Positions 11,386-33,426 of a stretch of DNA of 33,903 nt are shown here, one piece after another. The stretch is from Bacteroidales bacterium (GTDB lineage Bacteria > Bacteroidota > Bacteroidia > Bacteroidales > Prolixibacteraceae). The stretch lies in NCBI GenBank assembly GCA_015654795.1, contig JAATGF010000102.1, positions 1 to 33,903 on the forward strand, written 5' to 3'. Position 1 is the stretch's first letter. The number at the start of each line of letters is the position of its first letter. Made by a program: the position numbers and the translations under genes. Under the pieces are notes generated by a model that ran no database searches, was not told where the DNA came from, and saw only the letters and a list, made by a program, of their open reading frames with translations.

Positions 11386-11419
11386 TTGTTTTTTTCTTAA
11401 CACAAAAAACATACTTTTG
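11386..11419 (+). promoter_or_regulatory. promoter of the MgtE_N/CBS-NRAMP operon
   Basis: TACTTTTG at 11412-11419 matches TAnnTTTG exactly, and TTG at 11386-11388 lies 23 bp upstream. It predicts a transcript start near 11426 and a leader of about 125 nt before the ATG at 11551. Confidence 0.6.
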
Positions 11420-11450
11420 CGCCGCAAACCAATATCATTAAAAACAATGG

Positions 11451-11550
11451 ACGAGGGGCCTGCGAGTACATTTATTAATAACCTGATATAGCAGGAAAGC
11501 CAACTCATTTGTTTGCGCTCTTTGCTATATCAAAAAGCAAGGAGGTGTTT
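11451..11550 (+). promoter_or_regulatory. structured 5' leader with competing hairpins, riboswitch candidate
   Basis: Three helices can be drawn. A: CCTGC 11459-11463 with GCAGG 11491-11495. B: TGATATAGC 11484-11492 with GCTATATCA 11524-11532, a perfect 9-bp stem. C: CTTTGC 11520-11525 with GCAAGG 11537-11542, which covers the start of the Shine-Dalgarno AAGGAGG. B excludes both A and C. B therefore exposes the ribosome site, while A would free the strand for C and hide it. I do not recognise a known riboswitch class. The neighbouring genes suggest a divalent metal as ligand, which is inference. Confidence 0.5.
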
Positions 11551-12819
11551 ATGAATTCAATAACCACATTTTTTTTAAGTCGTGTCATTGGTCAAAAAGT
11601 ATTTGACACCAAGAGTAACTATATTGGTACCGTTAAGGATTTATTAGTTGATTCTGACTCTTCAACGCATTCTTCGGGACATCCGGTTGTTAATGGCATA
11701 AAGATTAAGTTTAAAAAACAGGACGCGTTCTATTCTTTTCAGAATTTCCATATTGAAAAGACAAATGGAAAAATAAAAATCATTTGCAGCCAGTTAATCG
11801 AATTATCATCCGATCAAATAAGTAGCAGTCTGTATCTTGCGTTAACGGTCCTTGACAACCAAATTGTGGATATCAATGGTCGCAAACTTGTCAGGGTTAA
11901 CGACATAAGGTTGGTAACGATCGGCAACGACACTTTTGCTGTTGCAGTTGACATCGGCATTGAAGGATTGCTGCGCAGAATTGGCATAGCCAAACCCCTG
12001 AAATATATTGTATCGCTTTTCAACGGAAGTATTCCTGCCAAGTTTATACTCTGGGAAGATGTTGAAACGATTGATTCTTCGAGTTCAAACATCAAACTCT
12101 CCAAGAGTTATAAGAAGCTTCAAACATTGCACCCTTCCGATTTGGCTGACATTATCGAAGATTTAGGACGGAAAGCAAGCGCTGAGGTATTCTCAGCACT
12201 CGATGACGAAAGAGCCGCTGATGTAATGGAAGAACTCGAAACGGAGACGCAGGTTCATATCCTCGAAAGCCTTTCGATCGAAAAAGCGGCCGATGTATTG
12301 GACAAGATGCCTGCGGATGAGGTTGCCGATATACTCGATGCGCTCGAAGACGAAAGAGCAGAACAACTGCTTAACGAAATGGAAAAAGACACCTCTCAGG
12401 AGGTCAGGGAGTTACTCGTTTATCCCGATCATACTGTGGGGAGTATCATGTCGTCTGATGTATTGTCATTTAACCAGAACATGACCATCGAGGAAGTTCT
12501 TATTGAGCTTAGAGCTAAAAAGCCGGAGTTCGAAACACTCTACAACCTTTTTGTAATAGATGAGAACGAAATATTATTAGCGACATTTTCTATACGTGAT
12601 GTAGTAATTTCTCCCCCTGATGCACGGATTAATCAGATTATGAAACCTTCGCCGGTTCATTTACGCGATTATCAAAAGATCAATGAAGTAGCCGAAATAG
12701 TCTCGAAATATAACCTGTTGGCAATACCTGTTGTCGACAAGAAGAATGTTCTGAAAGGAATGGTTGTCATTGACGATGTAATCGAAGACTTAATTCGTAA
12801 ACGTAGAACTAATAAATAG
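11551..12819 (+). CDS. soluble PRC-barrel / MgtE_N / CBS-domain protein, probable metal-sensing partner of NRAMP carrier
   Basis: The 422-residue protein has no membrane segments. The N-terminal part (about 1-175) looks like two PRC-barrel-type domains (VIGQKVFDTKSNYIGTVKDL; VDINGRKLVRVNDIRLV). The MgtE N domain of amphipathic repeats follows (about 190-285; LHPSDLADIIEDLG, KAADVLDKMPADEVADILDA). A CBS pair (about 293-415) ends with LLAIPVVDKKNVLKGMVVID. In MgtE channels the N and CBS domains bind Mg2+ and gate the pore; here the pore is missing. The next gene, 12 bp on, encodes an NRAMP-family carrier, so this is probably its regulator. I chose ATG 11551 because AAGGAGGTG lies 7 bp before it; an upstream in-frame start at 11509 falls inside the structured leader. 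Confidence 0.82.
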   Translation: MNSITTFFLSRVIGQKVFDTKSNYIGTVKDLLVDSDSSTHSSGHPVVNGIKIKFKKQDAFYSFQNFHIEKTNGKIKIICSQLIELSSDQISSSLYLALTVLDNQIVDINGRKLVRVNDIRLVTIGNDTFAVAVDIGIEGLLRRIGIAKPLKYIVSLFNGSIPAKFILWEDVETIDSSSSNIKLSKSYKKLQTLHPSDLADIIEDLGRKASAEVFSALDDERAADVMEELETETQVHILESLSIEKAADVLDKMPADEVADILDALEDERAEQLLNEMEKDTSQEVRELLVYPDHTVGSIMSSDVLSFNQNMTIEEVLIELRAKKPEFETLYNLFVIDENEILLATFSIRDVVISPPDARINQIMKPSPVHLRDYQKINEVAEIVSKYNLLAIPVVDKKNVLKGMVVIDDVIEDLIRKRRTNK

Positions 12820-12831
12820 AGGCTTTTGGTA

Positions 12832-14082
12832 ATGTTCAAAAATAAAAAGACTTTGTTTAGCCAGATTGGCTTGTTTTTAGCTATTCTGGGCCCTGGAATT
12901 ATTACCGGGAGTGTTGATAATGATGCCGGCGGGATTACAACTTATTCTGTTGCAGCCGCTGTTTACGGCTATAACTTAATCTGGACACTCATACCTTCAT
13001 TCATCGTACTTATTGTTATCCAGGAGATGAATGCCCGTATGGGAATTGTCACAGGTAAAGGTCTTGCGGACCTTATCCGCGAGAATGCCGGTGTTAAGAT
13101 TACCTTTTTTATATTTGTCGGTTTGCTGATTGCCGATATTGGCAATACCACAACCGAATTTGCCGGAGTTGCAGGTAGTATGGAAGTTTTCGGAGTCAGC
13201 AAATATATTTCTGTGCCTATTGTTGGCTTTCTGATATGGTTTCTCGTTGTTAAAGGAACCTACAAAATTGCTGAACGCATCTTTCTGCTTTTCAGTGTAT
13301 CTTTACTTATGTATGTCGTTTCGGCATTGATGGGCAAACCGCATTGGGGCGAAATCGGCCATGCGATTATTCATCCGGAAATGGAACTGAATACGCACAG
13401 CATTTCGATGATAATCGGTATTATTGGTACAACCATTGCGCCGTGGATGCAATTCTATATGCAATCGTCAGTTATCGAAAAAGGCCTGAAAATGAAGCAA
13501 TATAAATACACGCTCATCGATATTGTTGTGGGCTGTGTAGCAACAGTAGTTGTAGCCTTCTTTATCATGGTCGCCTGTGCCTCAACCTTACACGAAAACG
13601 GGGTTCAGATCAACGAAGCTAAAGATGCTGCCTTAGCCTTGAAACCGCTTGCCGGTGAATTTGCATCACAGCTATTTGCTTTTGGTCTCTTTATTGCTTC
13701 TGTTTTTTCGGCTACCATCTTACCATTGGCAACGGCCTTCTATGTATGCGAAGCCTTCGGATTCGAAGCCGGAATAGATAAAAAGTGGGACGAAGCCAAA
13801 GAGTTCTACGTCCTTTACACCGGTATCCTAATCATTGGAGCAGTCATCATCCTGGTTCCCAATGCGCCGCTTATAGCAATTTCTTTATGGACCCAGGTAA
13901 TCAATGGAATGCTTTTGCCCGTTGTTCTTGTTTGTATGATATTACTGGTCAATAATAAGAAGATCATGGGAGAGTATGTCAATAAACCAATCAACAATAT
14001 TATCGGTTGGGGAGCCATAACTGTTCTTGTGGTTTTATCACTGGTACTTCTTCTGCTGCCAATCTTTACAAATGCAAACTAA
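12832..14082 (+). CDS. NRAMP-family divalent metal transporter, atypical metal site
   Basis: The 416-residue protein has about eleven membrane segments. The first helix carries GPGIITGSVDNDAGG and the sixth GIIGTTIAPWMQFYMQSS, recognisable as NRAMP TM1 and TM6. The classic TM1 motif DPGN reads D31-A-G-G, and the TM6 Met that normally ligates Mn2+/Fe2+ is replaced by Ala203 (IAPW instead of the usual MPH). Known NRAMP-related Mg2+ transporters also lack that Met. With the adjacent MgtE_N/CBS gene, Mg2+ or another hard cation is a better guess than Mn2+/Fe2+. I use ATG 12832; a TTG at 12826 is an alternative. Confidence 0.85.
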   Translation: MFKNKKTLFSQIGLFLAILGPGIITGSVDNDAGGITTYSVAAAVYGYNLIWTLIPSFIVLIVIQEMNARMGIVTGKGLADLIRENAGVKITFFIFVGLLIADIGNTTTEFAGVAGSMEVFGVSKYISVPIVGFLIWFLVVKGTYKIAERIFLLFSVSLLMYVVSALMGKPHWGEIGHAIIHPEMELNTHSISMIIGIIGTTIAPWMQFYMQSSVIEKGLKMKQYKYTLIDIVVGCVATVVVAFFIMVACASTLHENGVQINEAKDAALALKPLAGEFASQLFAFGLFIASVFSATILPLATAFYVCEAFGFEAGIDKKWDEAKEFYVLYTGILIIGAVIILVPNAPLIAISLWTQVINGMLLPVVLVCMILLVNNKKIMGEYVNKPINNIIGWGAITVLVVLSLVLLLLPIFTNAN

Positions 14083-14140: not shown

Positions 14141-14320
14141 GGCATAGAGCAGGGAAATAGAATGATGGGGCGATAAAGCGATGGGGAGAAAAGGCGCAAG
14201 GGCGATAGGGAGAAGGAGAGACTGAGGGAGTGTCATTAAAATAGTCATTGAAAAGGTCATTGGCTTCGCCGTCATTAAAAGGTCATTGAAAAAGTTCATT
14301 GGCTTCGCCGTAATTAAAAG
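14141..14320 (-). repeat. modular composite repeat (purine-rich module plus GTCATT units)
   Basis: Plus-strand 14152-14232 is purine-rich (gatggggcgataaagcgatg and similar). 14232-14320 contains 11-16-bp units starting GTCATT, arranged as two roughly 38-bp copies, each with a central GGCTTCGCC. The reverse complement of 33718-33903 holds the same two modules in reversed order. No coding frame is supported. This fills the 200-bp gap after the NRAMP gene and runs into the end of the restriction-enzyme fragment. Confidence 0.8.
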
Positions 14321-14567
14321 GTCGTATAATTTCTGCACTTTTCGGATCCTGTTCAATTAACTCTTTTCTCTTTTCACCAGTGATTATAAAGGCATCATTA
14401 AACCCTGTTTTTATACCATAATTGATACGAATATTCCAGTCTTTTAATGGGGTTCCTATCCGTTCAATTTTTTCCTTGATTTGTTTCTCGATCGGAGATA
14501 ATACTACCCAACTATCCAAACCGGAAAAATTTAAGATATTCACGTTTTGTCTAAAATAAACGCTCAT
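14311..14567 (-). pseudogene. fragment of an Eco57I-like type IIG restriction-modification enzyme
   Basis: About 86 codons from the ATG at 14567 resemble the start of the TaqI-like specificity domain at the C-terminus of Eco57I/PglX-type enzymes: LSPIEKQIKEKIERIGTPLK, WNIRINYGIKTGFNDAFII, then DPKSAEIIRP. In intact proteins that IIRP stretch continues into the target-recognition region. Here the frame runs straight into the GTCATT repeat and stops at 14283. The methyltransferase and nuclease parts are absent. The family normally has 500-1,300 residues, so this is a non-functional remnant. Confidence 0.72.
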
Positions 14568-14652: not shown

Positions 14653-15255
14653 ATGATTTACGGATACATCCGCGTAAGCACAGACAAACAGACAGTAGAA
14701 AATCAAAGATTTGAGATTAATCAATTTTGTGAAAAGAAAGAATTTATCGTCAACAAGTGGATTGAAGAGACTATTTCAGGCTCGAAAAGTGTAGAAGATC
14801 GGAAGCTTGGAAAACTACTCAAGAAAATGAAAAAAGAAGATATTCTAATATGTTCTGAATTGTCACGGTTGGGCAGAAATTTGTTAATGATTATGGGTAT
14901 TCTCAATGAATGCATGAACAGAGATATAGAAGTTTGGACAATAAAAGACAATTATCGTTTGGGAAGTGATATCAATTCCAAAGTATTAGCTTTTGCTTTT
15001 GGGCTTTCAGCTGAAATAGAAAGGAATCTTATTTCTCAAAGGACAAAAGAGGCCCTTGCCCGCAAACGAGCCGAAGGAGTTATACTTGGTCGCCCTAAAG
15101 GGAGTAAATCGAAAATCAAAAAACTGACAGGAAAAGAAACTGAGATCAAAGTGCTACTTGATAAAAATGTTTCAAAAAGTGCAATTGCAAGGATATTAGG
15201 AGTACACAGATTAACTGTGACTGAGTTTGTGAAACAACAAGTACTTACAAAATAA
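14653..15255 (+). CDS. serine recombinase, resolvase/invertase family (Mpi-like)
   Basis: The 200-residue site-specific recombinase has the full small-serine-recombinase layout. The catalytic Ser9 is in YIRVSTDKQ, followed by ELSRLGRNLLMIM, the AEIERNLISQRTKEALARKR long helix, GRPKGSKSK, and a C-terminal helix-turn-helix (SKSAIARILGVHRLTVTEFV). Such enzymes resolve cointegrates or invert promoters; Bacteroides Mpi, which flips capsule promoters, is of this type. No pair of short inverted sites flanking a promoter was found beside it. It lies amid gene fragments and repeats and is probably part of a mobile or once-mobile island. Confidence 0.9.
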   Translation: MIYGYIRVSTDKQTVENQRFEINQFCEKKEFIVNKWIEETISGSKSVEDRKLGKLLKKMKKEDILICSELSRLGRNLLMIMGILNECMNRDIEVWTIKDNYRLGSDINSKVLAFAFGLSAEIERNLISQRTKEALARKRAEGVILGRPKGSKSKIKKLTGKETEIKVLLDKNVSKSAIARILGVHRLTVTEFVKQQVLTK

Positions 15256-16035: not shown

Positions 16036-18414
16036 TTATGCACTACAAGTAATACACCCTTCTTCCATATTACAACTTGGAGCAACAATTGTTTCCGTGT
16101 TCGCTTCACTAAGTAATTGTTTGTCAACAATCGTTTCTCCCATTTTACTGCCCTGCTTTTCAACTGTGAATTGTACAGCTTGTGCAGCTGATTTTGTACG
16201 AAGGTAATACATCCCAGTTTTTAAACCACTCTTCCATGCATAAAAGTGCATCGAAGTGAGTTTACTTGTATTTGGTGTTTCAATAAATAAGTTGAGCGAT
16301 TGAGATTGACAAATGAATGCGCCACGGTCGGCGGCCATATCAATAATAGTACGTTGTTTAATTTCCCATACGGTTTTATAGATTGCTTTCAGGCTCTCAG
16401 GTATTTCCGGTATATTTTGAATAGAGCCATTATTGGTAATTATTTTATTTTTCATCTCGTCAGTCCATAAATTCAATTCTATTAAATCTTTCAACAAGTG
16501 TTTGTTGACTACCACAAACTCTCCGCTTAAGACCCTCCGTACATAAATATTTGAAGTATAAGGCTCAAAACACTCGTTATTTCCCAGTATTTGCGATGTT
16601 GAAGCAGTTGGCATTGGTGCTAACAAAAGAGAATTCCGTATTCCAATTCTAATTACACCCTCCTTTAGTTTGTTCCAATCCCATCGATTAGTTGGTTCAA
16701 CATTCCACATATCGAATTGAAAAATACCCTTAGAAACAGGCGAATCGGGAAATGTTTCGTAAGGACCATCTTTTTGCGCCAGGTCTTTACTTGCTGTCAT
16801 AGCTGCGAAATACAGGGTTTCAAAAATTTCTTTGTTCAAAAGTCGGGCTTCATCACTTTCAAAAGGCAAACGCAGTAAAATAAAAGCATCAGCCAGTCCC
16901 TGCACGCCAATTCCAATTGGTCGATGGCGCAAATTGGAAACTCTGGCTTCTTCCACCGGGTAGTAATTGTTGTCAATGATCCGGTTCAGATTTTTTGTTA
17001 CTTCATAGGTTACTTCATATAATTTGTCGTGGTCGAATCTGCCATTGTTACAAAATCTTGGCAACGCCAAGGATGCCAGGTTACAAACGGCTACTTCTCC
17101 CGGTGAGGTATATTCTATAATTTCAGTACATAGGTTTGAGCTTTGAATGGTACCCAGGTTTTGCTGATTCGATTTTCGGTTGGCAGCATCTTTATAAAGC
17201 ATATAAGGTGTGCCGGTTTCAATTTGTGCTTCCAGTATGGCAAACCAAAGCTCTTGCGCTTTGATGGTTTTACGGGCTTTCCCTTCGGATTCGTAACGTT
17301 GGTATAGTTGTACAAATTGTTCTCCCCAGCATTCGTGAAGTCCGGGAGCTTCGTTTGGACAGAACAGACTCCATTCGCCGTTGTCTTCTACGCGTTCCAT
17401 AAAAAGATCTGGTATCCACAGAGCATAAAATAAGTCACGTGCCCGCATTTCTTCCTTGCCATGATTTTTCTTTAAATTCAGGAAATCGAAAATGTCAGAG
17501 TGCCAAGGTTCAAGGTAAATAGCAAATGAACCTTTACGCTTGCCTCCACCTTGATCGACATATCGTGCTGTGTCGTTAAATACTTTGAGCATAGGGATAA
17601 TCCCATTGCTTGTGCCGTTGGTTCCGCCAATATAACTTCCCGTAGCACGTATATTGTGCATGGACAGTCCAATGCCTCCTGCACTTTGTGATATTTTGGC
17701 CGTTTGCTTTAGTGTATCGTAAATACCGTCAATACTATCTTCTTTCATTGTAAGCAAGAAGCAACTGCTCATCTGAGGTTTGGGTGTTCCTGCATTGAAC
17801 AAAGTAGGTGTAGCATGAATAAACCACCTTTCGCTCATCAAATGATAGGTTTTTATAGCGCCTTCGATATCGTTTTTGTGAATTCCTACCGACACCCTCA
17901 TAAACATATGTTGCGGCCGTTCAACCACCTTATTGTCAATTTTCAAAAGGTAGGATTTCTCCAATGTTTTAAACCCAAAATAATCGAAGCTGTAATCGCG
18001 GTCGTAAATAATGGTGCTATCCAGGAGTTCCGAATGTTCATGAATTATTTCCCATACATCCTGAGCAATTAAAGGTGCCAACCTGCCAGTTTTATGATCT
18101 TTGTATTCGTAAAGCATCTGCATGGTTTCAGAAAAACTTTTAATCGTATTTTTATGGAGATTGCTAACTGCAATTCGGCTGGCAAGCAAAGCATAATCGG
18201 GATGTTTAACGGTGAGCGAAGCTGCTGTTTCGGCTGCAAGGTTATCTAATACCGTTGTGGCGACCCCGTCAAAAATACCTTCAATTACCTTACGCGCTAC
18301 TTCAACAGAATCAACAAACCTTCTGTCCAGGCCATAACAGAGTTTTTCGATACGCGCTGTAATCTTATCAAATTTTACAGACTCTTTTTTCCCGTTTCTT
18401 TTAATTACTTCCAT
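16036..18414 (-). CDS. nrdA: class I ribonucleoside-diphosphate reductase, alpha (catalytic) subunit
   Basis: NrdA reduces ribonucleoside diphosphates to deoxyribonucleotides using a radical generated in NrdB. The 792-residue protein begins with an ATP-cone ([20 protein letters not shown]) for allosteric control. Catalytic residues are visible: Cys218 in PKPQMSSCF, the Asn427/Cys429/Glu431 triad in SNLCTEI, and Cys444 in VAVCNLASL. The redox-shuttle cysteines sit at the extreme C-terminus (EEGCITCSA). I use ATG 18414; an upstream TTG (18444) overlapping nrdB is less likely. It is 26 bp downstream of nrdB and the last reductase gene of the locus. Confidence 0.96.
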
Positions 18415-18440
18415 AAGGTTCTTTTGTAGGATTATTCGAT

Positions 18441-19412
18441 TCAAAAGTCTTCATTAAGCGTGAATTTTTGAGCTTCTTTTCCTGTCATTACTCCTGCTTT
18501 TTGGTAGTCGCCCACACGTTTTTCGAAAAAATTAGTTTTGCCTTCCAGCGAGATCATCTCCATAAAATCGAAAGGATTGGTACTGTTGAACATTTTGGGA
18601 CAACCGAGTTCCAGCAGCCAACGATCTGCAACAAATTCAATGTATTGTTGCATTAAGGTTGCATTCATGCCGATTAGCCCAATTGGCAGTGCATCGGTAA
18701 TAAATTCTTTTTCAATTTTCACGGCATCGCCAATAATTGATTGTACCTGCTCCTGAGGCAATTTGTTTGCGAGCATGTTATATAACAAACAAGCAAATTC
18801 GCAATGCAATCCTTCATCGCGGCTTATCAACTCGTTGCTAAAGGTGAGACCGGGCAAAAGGCCTCTTTTCTTCATCCAAAAGATTGAACAAAAGCTTCCG
18901 CTAAAGAATATACCCTCTACAGCCGCAAAAGCGACTAATCGTTCGGCAAAGCTGCCTTTCCCAATCCAACGTAATGCCCATTCTGCTTTTTTCTTTACCA
19001 CAGGAACAGTGTCGATAGCATGGAACAAACGGTCTTTTTCGTCAGTATCGGCCACATAAGTATCTATCAGCAACGCATAGGTTTCGGAATGGATGTTTTC
19101 CATCATTATCTGGAACCCATAAAAGCATCGGGCTTCGGGCAATTGCACTTCGCTCATGAAATTTACCGCCAGATTCTCGTTTACAATACCATCGCTGGCC
19201 GCAAAGAAAGCCAGAACATGCGATATAAAATGGCGCTCTCCGTCATTAAGAGCAGTCCAGTCTTTAAGGTCGCTGCTTAAATCAATTTCTTCGGCAGTCC
19301 AGAAACTGGCTTCATGTTTTTTGTACATTTCCCACACTTTGGGGTAATTGATGGGCAGGATAACAAACCTGTCCTTATTTTCTTTCAGAAGTAATTCATT
19401 CGTGTTTTTCAT
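18441..19412 (-). CDS. nrdB: class I ribonucleoside-diphosphate reductase, beta (radical) subunit
   Basis: NrdB houses a di-iron or related metal centre and, in classical enzymes, a tyrosyl radical. The 323-residue ferritin-like protein keeps likely ligands in [10 protein letters not shown] (Asp74) and MENIHSETY (Glu105, His108), with Tyr112 at the position of the E. coli radical Tyr122. That argues for a standard oxygen-dependent class Ia-type enzyme. The start overlaps the end of the upstream activase gene by 17 bp, so the two are translationally linked. It precedes nrdA. Confidence 0.95.
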
Positions 19413-20228: not shown

Positions 20229-20696
20229 TCAAAACGTTTTAAACAAATAACTAATATCTTTCATACATCCATCTTGCTGTATTTGGAATAAATGCTGATT
20301 ACTGGTCTCGCTTTTCAGGCTTCCCAATTTTTCATCGTAACTTCCCAGTTTGATGTACTGAAAATACCTGGTGTCAAATCTTTCGGGCAAACTGGCGCAA
20401 CCTGAGTACCAGGCTACTTTTATTTCAGGATAATGAACACGCACAAAGTTGGCCAAAACGGATAACTGTTGGGGTTCTGCATCGCCACCCATAAAGCAAA
20501 AGCAGGTAATTGCTGAAGCGTATTTATCCATAAACGATGTGATTCGCTCTTCATTCAGCTCTTCTCCAATATCCTTTTGCAGGTGCGGACTGTGACACCC
20601 TTTACAACGATTTGGGCAGTTCGTGATATTAACCGCCAACGTAACTTCATTTGGAATCTCCTGAAAAACAATATCGTAGTTATAATATTTAAGCAT
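20229..20696 (-). CDS. nrdG: anaerobic ribonucleoside-triphosphate reductase activating protein (short NrdG)
   Basis: The 155-residue radical SAM activase carries CPNRCKGC (Cys27, Cys31, Cys34), followed by HSPHLQKDIG and the glycine-rich CFMGGDAEPQQL. These are typical of NrdG, which uses SAM and a [4Fe-4S] cluster to install the glycyl radical on NrdD. I use ATG 20696 (MLKYYNYDIV); a TTG at 20705 is in frame but unlikely. The start overlaps the nrdD stop by 8 bp, so translation is coupled. Confidence 0.92.
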   Translation of the reverse strand: MLKYYNYDIVFQEIPNEVTLAVNITNCPNRCKGCHSPHLQKDIGEELNEERITSFMDKYASAITCFCFMGGDAEPQQLSVLANFVRVHYPEIKVAWYSGCASLPERFDTRYFQYIKLGSYDEKLGSLKSETSNQHLFQIQQDGCMKDISYLFKTF

Positions 20697-22821
20697 ATTC
20701 TTCAAACCGCTTTTCTTCTTTTTGCTCTATATTGTTTTTTGCGTAGTACCTTTTGGCTGCTTCCTTTTGGCGTGCATCAGAGAAACTGCTTATTCGCTTC
20801 ATATACCCGATGATACGTGTCAGGTAGTCGATATTTTCACTTTTACAATGCGGGCATTCTTTTAAATAGCGCTTGTCGATATGCCCGCAATCGTTACAAA
20901 CTGTATTCGGAATATTGAATGTGAAATAATTACAGCCTTCTGTAGCAGCCACCCGGAGCAACTGGCGATACTGGGCTTCACTTAAATGTTCTTCCATGTT
21001 CATGTGTAAGGCAGAACCTCCGGTTAAATGCTCGATATACTTTTTCCCGTGAACCCGAAATTTATCAACAACATTTAGCGACTCATCTTCAACAATATAA
21101 AAATAGCTGTTATAGCAATCGCGCGGGACGAAATAGCCATCTTCACGGTCCCATTTGGCATGTTTTACGCCCACATTTTCAGCAGGGATCATTTCGCAGT
21201 TGAACAAGATATCTTTCGAACGGTACTTTTTATTGTAAGTTTCAATCAAGCCAAGGACTTCCCCGGTGAATGCTGCATATTCAGGATTATCATTGATTTC
21301 AATTCCCAAAAATTCAGCAGCTTCGACCAACCCGTTCACGCCAATGGTAAGGTACTGGCGACCCATATTTATATATCCGGCATCGAACAACGGAAGCATT
21401 CCTTTTTGTTGCAATTCCTTCAGATTTTCGTTGTAGCCGAGTTGTACTTTATGTACCAGATCAACAACCTCCTCCAGAAAATTGATGTATGGTATCCGTT
21501 CTTTTCTGGCTTGCTGTACACAGCGGTTCAGGTTGATGGTTAAAACACTCTTGGAACCGGTAGAAACCCCTCCAGCGCCCAGAGTATAGCTAAATCCGTT
21601 ATCCTGAATTTCGTTGCGCAAACGACAACACGAACTTAAACTGTCGGCATTATCACTCAGGTAAGTAAAGAATGAATGTCCTTCCGCATAGATTTTTGCG
21701 GTGAAGTCGCCATATTCTTTATCCTTCACATCCCCATTTTCGGACAGCAGAGCCATTGTTTCCACAGGGAATGTCAGAACAGTTTTTGTACGTTCTTTGT
21801 TGAACCATGCCATAAACCGTTTTTGCAACCAGCTCAACGATTCCCATTCAGGTTTGCTGCCATCGGGGAATACAAATTCACCGAATAAACTTTCAAAATA
21901 ATATTTGTCGTAATAAGCAATGTTCCAGAATACTGCCTGAAAATTACGCGCTCCGGTCGGCTGGTTCAACGAATAAACAATCTGTTCGAAACAGTCGGTA
22001 ATTACTTTATCGATTGAGCGTTTTCTCTTTGATAAGTCAACAATTTCATTGCTGCATTTATAATATTCATTGCCATATTCTTTGCTGATGAAATAATTCA
22101 GGTACATCAAAAATTCGGGCGTGGCACAAGCTCCGCTCAACATGCTTGAAACGATGAAAACCATATTGATAAACCCTCCGCAGAACGATTTTAAGTTGGT
22201 TGGTTCGGTGGAGTTTCCTCCGATTTTCGACGTTCCATCCAGTAACCACGGATACATGGTGATGCTGGCGCAATATGGAGCCAGGCTTGTTTCATCATTC
22301 TTGTAAATAAAATGCTGATTTAAAAAGCTGATGTATTTATCCGAAAGCTCTTTCCCGAACATATCCGACAGCCGGTCAGTTAACAACCGCCGGTTTAACC
22401 GGATGAAATTTTCTTTAGGGAGTTCACCGATAAGCGTTGCAATGTTTTTCTTATCAACATTGGCATTTGAATCGAATTTACTTCCAGTTGCAGCATTTCC
22501 GGCAGCACAGTAATCAATCAGGAATTTTACACGGTCTCTCGTTTCCCGGTCCTCAGAATGCTTCTGGCGATAAAGCAGATACGATTTTGCCACCGAAAAA
22601 TAGCTTTCCGCCATAAGTGAATGTTCCACCTGGTTTTGGATATCTTCCACGCTCATCTCGTTACGAATATTTAAACGATGCAAAATATTTGTAAGGTCAT
22701 CTTCGCTGGCAAAGCTTCCAACCGAAAGAAAGGCTTTTTTAATGGCATTTCTGATTTTATCGATAGAGAACGATACTCTCTTCCCGTCTCTTTTAACAAT
22801 GATTAATTCTGCGCCTCTCAT
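20689..22821 (-). CDS. nrdD: class III anaerobic ribonucleoside-triphosphate reductase
   Basis: NrdD makes deoxyribonucleotides without oxygen through an oxygen-sensitive glycyl radical. The 710-residue protein has an N-terminal ATP-cone (IIVKRDGKRVSFSIDKIRNA). Near the C-terminus are a four-cysteine zinc site (VCNDCGHID and KECPHCKS) and the glycyl-radical segment RIIGYMKRI. The body contains FTFNIPNTVCNDC and TGGSALHMNM, typical of the family. The gene is first in the locus, with a long leader of about 440 nt holding a cobalamin riboswitch. A run of short frames on the opposite strand is shadow. Confidence 0.95.
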   Translation of the reverse strand: MRGAELIIVKRDGKRVSFSIDKIRNAIKKAFLSVGSFASEDDLTNILHRLNIRNEMSVEDIQNQVEHSLMAESYFSVAKSYLLYRQKHSEDRETRDRVKFLIDYCAAGNAATGSKFDSNANVDKKNIATLIGELPKENFIRLNRRLLTDRLSDMFGKELSDKYISFLNQHFIYKNDETSLAPYCASITMYPWLLDGTSKIGGNSTEPTNLKSFCGGFINMVFIVSSMLSGACATPEFLMYLNYFISKEYGNEYYKCSNEIVDLSKRKRSIDKVITDCFEQIVYSLNQPTGARNFQAVFWNIAYYDKYYFESLFGEFVFPDGSKPEWESLSWLQKRFMAWFNKERTKTVLTFPVETMALLSENGDVKDKEYGDFTAKIYAEGHSFFTYLSDNADSLSSCCRLRNEIQDNGFSYTLGAGGVSTGSKSVLTINLNRCVQQARKERIPYINFLEEVVDLVHKVQLGYNENLKELQQKGMLPLFDAGYINMGRQYLTIGVNGLVEAAEFLGIEINDNPEYAAFTGEVLGLIETYNKKYRSKDILFNCEMIPAENVGVKHAKWDREDGYFVPRDCYNSYFYIVEDESLNVVDKFRVHGKKYIEHLTGGSALHMNMEEHLSEAQYRQLLRVAATEGCNYFTFNIPNTVCNDCGHIDKRYLKECPHCKSENIDYLTRIIGYMKRISSFSDARQKEAAKRYYAKNNIEQKEEKRFEEYA

Positions 22822-23057
22822 AACTTTTAATTTTATTTATCTGGATTTTAATTGTCCGTTTTTATTCCCCGCCTGTGTCTGGTTTTACCAACAACGATAC
22901 AGGTTTACACCATCTCGATTCATTTATTAGTTGCCTATTTTTCAGGAAATAAAAAGGTGCGATGACAGAATGAGTCGATAACTTTATAAAAAAGAGAAGC
23001 GGATTCGATCTCAAACCTGACTTTTATTCCCGAAAGTCTTCTTGATTAAATATTTGG

Positions 23058-23258
23058 ATTGTGGCAGGTCTTCTGGCTTGTCCTGTCCAGACGGCCTTCC
23101 CATTCGTCATCTGACGGACAGTGGCAAGAGGGTGTCTGAACATTTTTTACGGACTTACAGCTGCGGGGACAGCTCCGGATTCTCCTGTTTAACGGCCATG
23201 GCCAAACAAAAACACCGGATTCCCTTTTAATTCCGGCCCTGAAAGACAGGGTCCGGAA
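23058..23258 (-). promoter_or_regulatory. cobalamin (B12) riboswitch upstream of nrdD
   Basis: Reading the minus strand from 23258: a CCGGACCCTG/CAGGGCCGG hairpin, then AAAAGGGAATCCGGTG, GAGCTGTCCCCGCAGCTGTA, GCCACTGTCCG, ATGGGAAGGC, and the B12 box AAGCCAGAAGACCTGCC (about 23064-23080). These are the conserved blocks of the cobalamin riboswitch in order. The class normally switches genes off when adenosyl- or other cobalamins are abundant. It is oriented toward nrdD, 237 bp from the ATG. No obvious intrinsic terminator follows; a GACTTT/AAAGTC hairpin at 23019-23038 is a possible part of the expression platform. Confidence 0.93.
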
Positions 23259-23274
23259 ACCAGTAATCGTGATA

Positions 23275-23307
23275 CAATTATAATCTAAATATCTGTTAAG
23301 GAACCAA
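23275..23307 (-). promoter_or_regulatory. possible promoter of the ribonucleotide reductase locus
   Basis: The minus strand reads TTGG (23307-23304), a 21-bp spacer and TATAATTG (23282-23275), one base off TAnnTTTG. The predicted start near 23268 lies just before the first riboswitch hairpin. Confidence 0.4.
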
Positions 23308-30767: not shown

Positions 30768-33086
30768 TCATGACGAAAGAGGTATTGACTTCCTCAATAT
30801 TTTTGCCGCTTCAATCATATTTTCGAGTGACTGAACGGTTTCTGGCCAGTCTCTTGTCTTCAGGCCGCAATCGGGATTTACCCAAAGGTTCTCAACCGGA
30901 ATATAATGGGAGGCGGCATAAATCAGATCACACATTTCGCTTACCGATGGTACCCGCGGCGAATGAATATCATAAACCCCGGGGCCAACATGGTTGGGAT
31001 ATTGCACCTTTGCGAATGCTTTCAAAAGTTCCATCTGCGAGCGTGAGGTTTCAATGCTGATCACGTCGGCATCCATCCCGACGATAGATAGAAGGATATC
31101 GTTAAACTCGGCATAACACATGTGGGTATGGATTTGCGTTTCATCACGTACGCCCAGATGACTTAATTTGAATGACCTGACGGCCCATTCGAGATATGCC
31201 GGTTTTTCATCTTTTCGTAGCGGCAATCCTTCGCGCAAAGCCGGTTCATCAATCTGAATAATGCGTATCCCGGCCTTTTCAAGGTCAAGCACCTCATCTT
31301 GAATGGCGAGCGCAATCTGAGTCGCTGTTGTCTCACGCGGCTGGTCGTCGCGAACGAACGACCATTGCAGGATGGTGACAGGTCCGGTCAACATGCCTTT
31401 TACTGGTTTGTCGGTTAACGACTGTGCATAAACTGCCATGTCAACAGTCATTGGGTTTTTACGCGAAATATCACCATAAATCACCGGTGGTTTCACCCCA
31501 CGAGACCCGTAGCTTTGTACCCATCCGTTTTGGGTGAAGGCAAATCCGTTGAGTTGTTCTCCGAAAAATTCAACCATGTCGTTTCGCTCAAACTCGCCGT
31601 GAACCAGCACATCAAGCCCGATTTTTTCCTGCAAACGGATGACCGCTTCGGTTTCTTTTCTGATAAACTGATTGTATTCTTCATGGCTGACTTCGCCGTT
31701 CAGAAACCGACGACGGGTTTTACGTACTTCGGTTGTTTGTGGAAACGAACCGATAGTGGTGGTTGGGAACGAGGGAAGATGTAGACGTTCCTGTTGCTTT
31801 TTGATCCGTTCAGCGAAAACTGTTTTCCGCCTTGTCTTTTCTAATTCACGGGAAACACAGTTAGTACGCTTTCTCACCTGCTCATTTCTGGCCCATAATG
31901 AATTGGCCCATTCTGCAAGCATTTTTTCATTTTCGCTGAATTGGTGAAGTGAATCGACTGATGAAAAATTCTCAGCCAGATCAGCCAGGGTTTTGAGTTC
32001 ATCCAATTTCTGAACAGCAAAAGCCATCCTGTTTTTCACTTCGGGAGGAAGTCCGCGAGGATCAGTTTCATTCTCCAAATCATAGGGAACATGCAGCAAT
32101 GCACAGGATGGAGCGACTAAAACCCTGTCGGAACCCAATGTCTCCACAGCTTTATTTATCAGCTCAAGCGATGACTTTAGGTTGTTCTTCCATATATTAC
32201 GACCATCAACCACCCCAAGAGAGATGGACATCGATGACGGAATCCGTCTGAGCAGTCCATCCAGCTGATTAGCTGCCCGAACCAGATCGACATGAAGCAC
32301 TTCGAGCGGAAGACGGGAAATGACATCGAAATTGTGACTGATGCTTCCGAAATAAGTAGCCAGTATAAACCGGATTCCGGGGAATGAGCCAAACAGTTCA
32401 GTCAAGGTAGTGCGGTAAAGCTGCCGTTCGTAATCAGTCAGATCGGTTACAAGGAATGGTTCATCAATCTGGATACAATCGACACCGGCAATTTCAAGCT
32501 TGCCAATAATTTCGATGTAAACAGGGAGTAAAGAATAAAGCAACTGAAGAGGATCAAAATCATCGTGCTTTGCTTTTCCAAGCTTCAGGAATGTTATGGG
32601 TCCTAAAAGCACCGGTTTGGTTTTTATTCCCAATAAAAGGGCTTCACTGAATTCGTCAACCACTTTGGAGTCGGAAAATGTAAATTGCTGGTCTTTTTCG
32701 AATTCGGGTACCAGGTAATGATAGTTGGTATCGAACCATTTGGTCATTTCGAGCGGAGTGACATCATACCCATCTTTCTGATAACCACGGCACATTGCAA
32801 AATACAGGTCGCGCGGCGAAAGTTTGTTTTTCAGGGCTGAAAACCGGGAGGGAATAGCGCCCAGGGCAAAACTCAAGTCGGCAACCTGGTCGTAAAACGA
32901 AAAATCGTTGGATGGGATCAGGCCTATGTCCGCTTTTTGTTGGATTTGCCAGTTCTTACGGCGTTCGGTTTTTCCGGTTTCTTCCAGTTGACTGAGCGAA
33001 ATTTTCCCAGCCCAGTAAGCTTCACAAGCTTTTTTTAATTCGCGGTTGGCCCCAATACGCGGAAAGCCAAGGTTGTGTGTAAGCAT
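30768..33086 (-). CDS. metE: cobalamin-independent methionine synthase
   Basis: MetE transfers a methyl group from 5-methyltetrahydrofolate-triglutamate to homocysteine without B12. The 772-residue protein has both TIM-barrel halves. It begins LGFPRIGANRELKKACEAYW, and the catalytic half starts near FPTTTIGSFPQTTEVRKTRR. Zinc ligands are visible in QIHTHMCYAEF (His and Cys), a downstream Glu, and WVNPDCGLKTRDW. The leader carries a cobalamin riboswitch, the classic arrangement for metE. A strong terminator follows the stop. Confidence 0.97.
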   Translation of the reverse strand: MLTHNLGFPRIGANRELKKACEAYWAGKISLSQLEETGKTERRKNWQIQQKADIGLIPSNDFSFYDQVADLSFALGAIPSRFSALKNKLSPRDLYFAMCRGYQKDGYDVTPLEMTKWFDTNYHYLVPEFEKDQQFTFSDSKVVDEFSEALLLGIKTKPVLLGPITFLKLGKAKHDDFDPLQLLYSLLPVYIEIIGKLEIAGVDCIQIDEPFLVTDLTDYERQLYRTTLTELFGSFPGIRFILATYFGSISHNFDVISRLPLEVLHVDLVRAANQLDGLLRRIPSSMSISLGVVDGRNIWKNNLKSSLELINKAVETLGSDRVLVAPSCALLHVPYDLENETDPRGLPPEVKNRMAFAVQKLDELKTLADLAENFSSVDSLHQFSENEKMLAEWANSLWARNEQVRKRTNCVSRELEKTRRKTVFAERIKKQQERLHLPSFPTTTIGSFPQTTEVRKTRRRFLNGEVSHEEYNQFIRKETEAVIRLQEKIGLDVLVHGEFERNDMVEFFGEQLNGFAFTQNGWVQSYGSRGVKPPVIYGDISRKNPMTVDMAVYAQSLTDKPVKGMLTGPVTILQWSFVRDDQPRETTATQIALAIQDEVLDLEKAGIRIIQIDEPALREGLPLRKDEKPAYLEWAVRSFKLSHLGVRDETQIHTHMCYAEFNDILLSIVGMDADVISIETSRSQMELLKAFAKVQYPNHVGPGVYDIHSPRVPSVSEMCDLIYAASHYIPVENLWVNPDCGLKTRDWPETVQSLENMIEAAKILRKSIPLSS

Positions 33087-33237
33087 AAGTCAACATTTAA
33101 ATGGTTTGACATTAAATTTTGATATGCTTAAGCGGGATGAAAAACAGAAAGGCGCGCGAAAAAAACAAAGAGAAGAACAATCTTTTTCGCTCCTGACCAT
33201 TGCTCTATACCGCGAAAGCAATTGTCGTTCATGAATT

Positions 33238-33405
33238 AAGACAGGTCTCCTGGCTCGTCCGTTTTGTAACGCCTTCCCATTCCGATTGGTATCAGAGCAG
33301 TGGCAATAAGTTACAAAACTGTTGGTGGACTTTACAGTTGCGCGACAGCTCACGATTTACACGTGATTCCCTATTAAACCCGTTTTACGGGGTATCCTAT
33401 TCCTA
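33238..33405 (-). promoter_or_regulatory. cobalamin (B12) riboswitch upstream of metE
   Basis: Minus-strand blocks in order: a CCCCGTAAAACGGG hairpin, TAATAGGGAATCACGTG, GAGCTGTCGCGCAACTGTAA, TTGCCACTG, ATGGGAAGGCGTT, and the B12 box GAGCCAGGAGACCTGTC (about 33240-33257). The peripheral P6-like helix is formed by GTTTTGTAAC and GTTACAAAAC. It should repress metE when B12 is plentiful, allowing MetH to take over. The 3' end is about 150 nt before the metE ATG. Confidence 0.93.
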
Positions 33406-33426
33406 AAATTGTTATGAACGCCGGGA

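Follow-up and report, generated by a model that had tools for sequence, protein, structure and literature searches.

A candidate Mg2+-sensing leader ahead of Bacteroidota operons that pair an NRMT carrier with a soluble MgtE-like protein

The DNA analysed here, a contig of 33,903 nucleotides (the window) from a fragmented, 69% complete Bacteroidales genome (3.68 Mb in 180 contigs), carries two genes head to tail on the forward strand, one for a soluble accessory protein and one for an NRAMP carrier of the NRMT type. We read this locus as a Mg2+-uptake operon controlled at two levels, by an attenuator in the mRNA leader and by the accessory protein acting on the carrier, and give this reading a probability of roughly two thirds. 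The accessory gene (422 aa) extends from the ATG at 11551 to 12819 and the carrier gene (416 aa) from 12832 to 14082, where ATG 12832 is preferred as the start over TTG 12826. An earlier note on this DNA had placed the system at 11551-14082, a span that holds both genes and leaves out the leader with its upstream open reading frame (uORF; about 11412-11550). The nearest named relative at the operon is a Mariniphaga sp. MAG (L090), whose carrier is 96% identical.

The carrier matches the Nramp family (PF01566, E 5.9e-96). Its best match in the PDB is EleNRMT (7qia; E 2e-109, 44% identity), followed by a canonical Nramp at 5e-24. TM1 reads N30-D31-A32-G33-G34 and TM6 reads G199-T200-T201-I202-A203-P204-W205, with Ala203 at the position of the canonical NRAMP Met, so that the NRAMP fold, the DAGG for DPGN and the Ala203 for Met described in the earlier note are all read as claimed. 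The signature DxxG-TxxA/T replaces the DxxN and A/CxxM of canonical NRAMPs in NRMTs (PMC8806188), and the DAGG and TTIA of the window carrier fit it. DPGN and AVVM are retained in the sole other Nramp of the genome (L001). In a FastTree phylogeny, which has long branches and in which deep placement is uncertain, the window carrier and EleNRMT share a clade (90 rows) from which L001 and DraNramp are separate. Judged by its sequence, the carrier thus belongs to the NRMT clade of the SLC11/NRAMP branch. Given the 7qia match, the NRMT motifs and the separate canonical Nramp in the genome, the missing TM6 Met can be taken as a mark of the known Mg2+ branch and not as an oddity. The locus resembles known NrmT/NRMT systems (C. 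acetobutylicum Ca_c0685; EleNRMT) in the NRAMP fold, the DxxG-TxxA/T site and the adjacent MgtE-N-like gene found in most members, and differs from them in having a leader uORF instead of an M-box.

Pfam searches of the accessory protein returned a PRC domain at residues 5-36 (E 2.3e-6), MgtE_N at 193-293 (4e-25) and two CBS stretches, with no match to the MgtE channel domain PF01769. A second PRC-like copy is present, the Pfam match being limited to the first. The AlphaFold model (mean pLDDT 84) begins with a pair of barrels rich in beta structure (about 4-79 and 93-173) and continues with a loose linker, a helical N domain, a CBS pair (about 296-421) and a last helix at 407-421. This agrees with the earlier description of the first gene as PRC-barrel-like, MgtE_N and CBS domains lacking a membrane part. 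The N and CBS parts superimpose on MgtE cytosolic-domain structures with TM-scores of 0.83-0.84 (2yvy, 5x9g). The likeness to the T. thermophilus MgtE cytosolic domain (2YVY/2ZY9; TM-score 0.83) thus covers the N domain and the CBS pair, whereas the channel domain is missing, tandem PRC-like barrels are added, and the ATP pocket and some acidic sites are lost.

The residues were compared across 120 accessory sequences aligned to T. thermophilus MgtE, with a list of Mg2+-site residues that we in part take as given. Most residues at the positions of E59, D91, D95 and D247 are acidic; at those of D214 and D226 most are not. The residues of the ATP pocket in that MgtE are Y170, N203 and F227 (PMC5529423); their equivalents are not retained in the window accessory. 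Most invariant residues of the family sit in the barrel region (G26, D30, D102, Q104, R115, N117, D118, D134, R142 and R143), which suggests that the barrels and not the CBS part make a family-specific contact. The protein does not serve an MgtE channel in the genus, since the channel domain was found above the cut-off in none of 13 genomes of the genus (one weak match lay below it). CorA is present in 10 of these genomes and MgtA, above the cut-off, in two. In a relative, a divergent CorA gene (G007:C92:3546-4394) lies next to the NRMT operon, placing two Mg2+ importers side by side.

How regularly the two genes occur together was surveyed across 296 evenly sampled Bacteroidota genomes, with carrier matches accepted at E ≤ 1e-70. 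Forty carrier genes were found in 39 genomes, and all those fetched bear the NRMT motifs. The accessory gene adjoins the NRMT gene in 39 of the 40 cases, the fortieth lying near a contig end; one of 39 Bacteroidota accessories (G087) has an in-frame stop. No such neighbour was seen beside the other Nramps of this survey (24-34% identity). Among the 80 best-matching named loci, which come from about 10 phyla and are not an unbiased sample, 73 have the accessory (L168 being counted as a partial match on the opposite strand), three lack it within the flank (L147, L148 and L163) and in the other four a contig end intervenes or the case is unclear. Since the two genes co-occur almost invariably, the pairing proposed in the earlier note does not fail for rarity. 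The accessory gene comes first in most of the window's lineage. One Bacteroidota lineage has the NRMT gene first, and this swap speaks for a functional connection between the genes over simple inheritance. No natural fusion of accessory and carrier was seen in about 120 loci. A Bacteroidales MAG (L113, 7561-10154) has a second, inverted accessory-NRMT pair beside the first. L147 and L148, both Peptococcaceae NRMT genes with no accessory within 6 kb, offer a natural control for an NRMT that stands alone; the L147 gene is immediately preceded by an M-box.

Neither the pair nor the idea that a borrowed MgtE sensor gates the carrier is new. Shin and co-workers (Shin et al., 2014; PMC4072509) reported that, for most members of the NrmT group, a neighbouring gene encodes a homologue of the N-terminal cytoplasmic domain of MgtE, and proposed feedback regulation. 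In their work Mg2+ rescue did not depend on the accessory gene, and co-expression of the partner from Acidobacterium capsulatum, the sole co-expression tested, brought no gain; the carrier of that species appeared to be directed at Mn2+. No later paper testing the NrmT accessory was found in the open-access literature. Our survey of the pair confirms the published work and widens its range.

Going by its domain homology, the accessory protein most likely binds Mg2+ and damps or tunes the carrier. That it is instead a Mg2+ buffer, a chaperone or a membrane scaffold expressed with the carrier, and not its gate, is less probable, though it deserves serious attention and would be compatible with the leader model set out below. 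Such a role would suit the concentration of invariant residues in the barrels rather than in the MgtE part, the loss of the D214 and D226 equivalents and the activity of the transporter alone (PMC4072509). It sits less well with the mostly acidic equivalents of E59, D91, D95 and D247, and with the inhibition of the MgtE channel by its own N/CBS domains once Mg2+ is bound (PMC8104411). Of the two-protein system put forward in the earlier note, the Mg2+ reading stands, on the NRMT clade, the M-box-driven kin and the co-occurrence, whereas the word "gates" goes beyond the evidence, given that NrmT works alone, that co-expression brought no gain and that in some operons no partner lies close by. 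The pair is best understood as a Mg2+ uptake system that includes a soluble, MgtE-like regulatory protein.

Related NRMT operons are governed by the M-box (ykoK, RF00380). It lies ahead of the closest Bacillota relatives in 10 of 12 loci and in 5 of 12 loci of a further set, and M-box-controlled NRMT operons occur in Bacillota and Geobacteraceae. Close kin of the window carrier in Clostridium, Desulfosporosinus and others (about 66-75% identical) have such Mg2+ riboswitches, and from these M-box-controlled kin we infer that the window carrier, too, imports Mg2+. In the window leader, neither an M-box nor any other Rfam element was found above threshold, and the weak Rfam matches there were put down to chance. 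The M-box was likewise not found in the 14 Bacteroidota and Ignavibacteria loci scanned.

Elsewhere in the window, two cobalamin riboswitches (RF00174) lie on the reverse strand. One (33223-33414, 92.4 bits) is located ahead of a B12-independent methionine synthase gene (30768-33086), and the other (23046-23279, 103.5 bits) upstream of an NrdD-type anaerobic ribonucleotide reductase (20689-22821), beyond which lie class I-like reductase genes (16036-19412); this looks like a B12-dependent choice among isozymes. Downstream of the NRMT gene, at 14236-14312, a short repeat beginning GGTCATTGGCTTCGCCGTCATTAAAA is probably a dispersed intergenic repeat, because a second contig of this genome (L190, about 1640-1760) carries it too. 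An ORF of 94 aa on the reverse strand (14283-14567) adjoins a resolvase gene (14653-15255); it is a fragment with no Pfam match, which we take to resemble the tail of a restriction-modification enzyme.

The new part of the locus appears to be its leader, which combines a uORF with a candidate RNA switch; we found no earlier report of such a leader for this lineage or this transporter, and a non-exhaustive search of the open-access literature returned nothing on a uORF at nrmT operons. The uORF MDEGPASTFINNLI (11447-11491, forward strand) has 14 codons and lies about 100 nt upstream of the accessory gene. It stands behind a putative promoter -7 box, TACTTTTG (11412-11419, forward strand), so designated by the TAnnTTTG motif that we take to be the Bacteroidetes -7 consensus. 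A similar box is located about 30 nt upstream of the uORF in most of the relatives' leaders. The opening ATGGAYGANNNNCC is kept in 26 of 26 aligned Bacteroidota leaders, with a variable peptide tail, and the amino-acid motif M-D-x-x-P is conserved while the codons change. Across 18 genomes of the genus, ATGGAYGANGRNCCNRCN was matched 16 times, 15 of them at the NRMT operon, and this pattern is present in all 11 good-quality genomes of the genus. An M-D-x-x-P-type uORF was found within 150 nt in 49 of 89 accessory-first loci, compared with 0.5 in shuffles, in locus sets that contain near-duplicates; the leaders are related by descent, so these counts are not independent. None was found at the 30 NRMT-first or partnerless loci, and no convincing uORF was seen upstream of 20 ordinary mgtE genes of the same phylum, a long GC-rich ORF ahead of mgtE in L186 being judged a chance occurrence. 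Versions of the motif also precede related operons in other phyla, among them MDGDPY in Clostridium manihotivorum, MDTDPD in Desulfosporosinus, MDPYP in a spirochaete and MDPDS in Kapabacteria. In Clostridium these uORFs sit between the M-box and the gene.

Within the uORF and between it and the accessory gene, four segments of the forward strand can form alternative helices. Segment 1 (11459-11464; CCTGCG in uORF codons 5-6) can pair with GCAGG downstream of the stop codon. Segment 2 (11484-11495) overlaps the uORF stop codon and forms the 5′ arm of the anti-sequester helix A. Segment 3 (11515-11532), the anti-Shine-Dalgarno (anti-SD) region, pairs either with segment 2 through 11523-11532 (helix A) or with the SD through 11515-11526 (helix B), and the two helices are mutually exclusive. 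The accessory gene's Shine-Dalgarno, AGGAGG (11540-11545), lies in segment 4, AGCAAGGAGGTGT (11536-11548). In 36 of 38 leaders both pairings draw on overlapping parts of segment 3, and in all 38 helix B takes in the SD. Misplaced gaps in the class-specific leader alignments make per-column pair counts unreliable, and a register-free test was therefore used. Among 23 dereplicated leaders, pairing between segments of the same leader was better than pairing across leaders for both helices, also after correction for composition, with p about 5e-5, which is the floor of this permutation test. For the helix between the early uORF codons (segment 1) and segment 2, the covariation is weak and suggestive (p 0.02-0.03). 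Taken alone, 11484-11551 adopts the open form, helix A (-21.1 kcal/mol, z -3.5); for 11510-11553 the fold is the closed form, the SD sequesterer (-12.4 kcal/mol, z -2.7). Minimum free energy folding of the full leaders left the SD base-paired whether the stop region was blocked or free, and showed no clear difference between the two. Because the closed form is favoured either way, the switch, if the model holds, would have to be kinetic or co-transcriptional and to depend on when transcription and the ribosome proceed.

Two enterobacterial leaders offer a precedent. On the EPDP of MgtL, ribosomes fall off when Mg2+ is low (PMC11282234; PMC11552253), and in Salmonella mgtQ Asp2 and Glu5, together with the stem-loops 1:2, 2:3 and 3:4, control the mgtB ribosome binding site (PMC8092293). 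Like MgtL of the E. coli and Salmonella mgtA leader, the window uORF is short, opens with acidic and proline residues, precedes a Mg2+ importer and would be broken off in low Mg2+, with higher expression as the result. MgtL works by way of Rho termination, whereas the helices of the window bear on the SD; no homology was seen between the leaders, and MDEGP has fewer acidic and proline residues than MEPDP. The mgtQ leader (Salmonella mgtC-mgtB) is similar in its 8-codon uORF with Asp2, Pro4 and Glu5 and in its alternative stem-loops at the ribosome binding site; it is intergenic and serves a P-type ATPase in another phylum, whereas the window leader stands at the 5′ end of an NRMT operon.

By this analogy, the leader is most likely a translational attenuator of the MgtL/MgtQ kind, in which low Mg2+ aborts translation of the uORF and frees the SD. 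In low Mg2+, ribosomes would falter at the acidic, proline-containing start MDEGP, segment 2 at the uORF stop would pair with the anti-SD segment 3, and with the SD free both genes would be translated. In high Mg2+, a ribosome at the uORF stop would cover segment 2, the anti-SD would pair with the SD, and translation would be switched off; it is in this way that the alternative helices would be linked to the position of the ribosome. The accessory protein would bind cytosolic Mg2+ and damp or tune the carrier, as a second brake at the protein level. The leader part of this model is drawn from sequence and covariation, and we infer Mg2+ as the signal, the drop-off of ribosomes, the direction of control and the action of the accessory protein.

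It is unlikely that the locus is just an ordinary NRMT-accessory operon of the kind described by Shin et al. (2014), with a small coupled ORF that senses no Mg2+ and, for example, aids translation initiation. The pair has indeed been published, SD-sequestering hairpins and short uORFs are common, and full-leader folding changes little with a ribosome at the stop. An ordinary operon would however leave unexplained why M-D-x-x-P is kept while the codons and the peptide tail change, why two alternative helices co-vary, why a similar uORF follows M-boxes in Clostridium and why genomes of the genus have essentially a single match to the uORF pattern. It is improbable that Mn2+, or some other divalent ion, is the main substrate of the carrier and the signal for the accessory protein: EleNRMT moves Mn2+ as well as Mg2+ (PMC8806188), and A. 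capsulatum NrmT, which has an adjacent partner, rescued a Mn2+ defect fully but the Mg2+ defect at low-millimolar Mg2+ only (PMC4072509), but the window carrier nests with M-box-controlled relatives, the genome has a separate canonical Nramp (DPGN/AVVM), and acidic, proline-containing leader peptides are tied to Mg2+ importers.

Beyond the window, we favour, with some reserve, the view that an undescribed Mg2+-sensing leader, made up of an M-D-x-x-P uORF and a translational attenuator, is widespread ahead of Bacteroidota NRMT operons, is stacked behind the M-box in some Bacillota and is convergent with enterobacterial MgtL and MgtQ. If this is true, one mRNA of some Bacillota would read Mg2+ twice by different means, and ribosomes on acidic, proline-rich starts would be Mg2+ sensors outside the enterobacteria, a test case for the conservation of this property. 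The natural uORF variants MDEGP, MDDDP, MDDYP, MDGDP and MDPYP provide a panel of starts that may destabilise the ribosome. Such a leader would also explain how Bacteroidota, at whose NRMT loci the M-box was not found, could switch the importer on.
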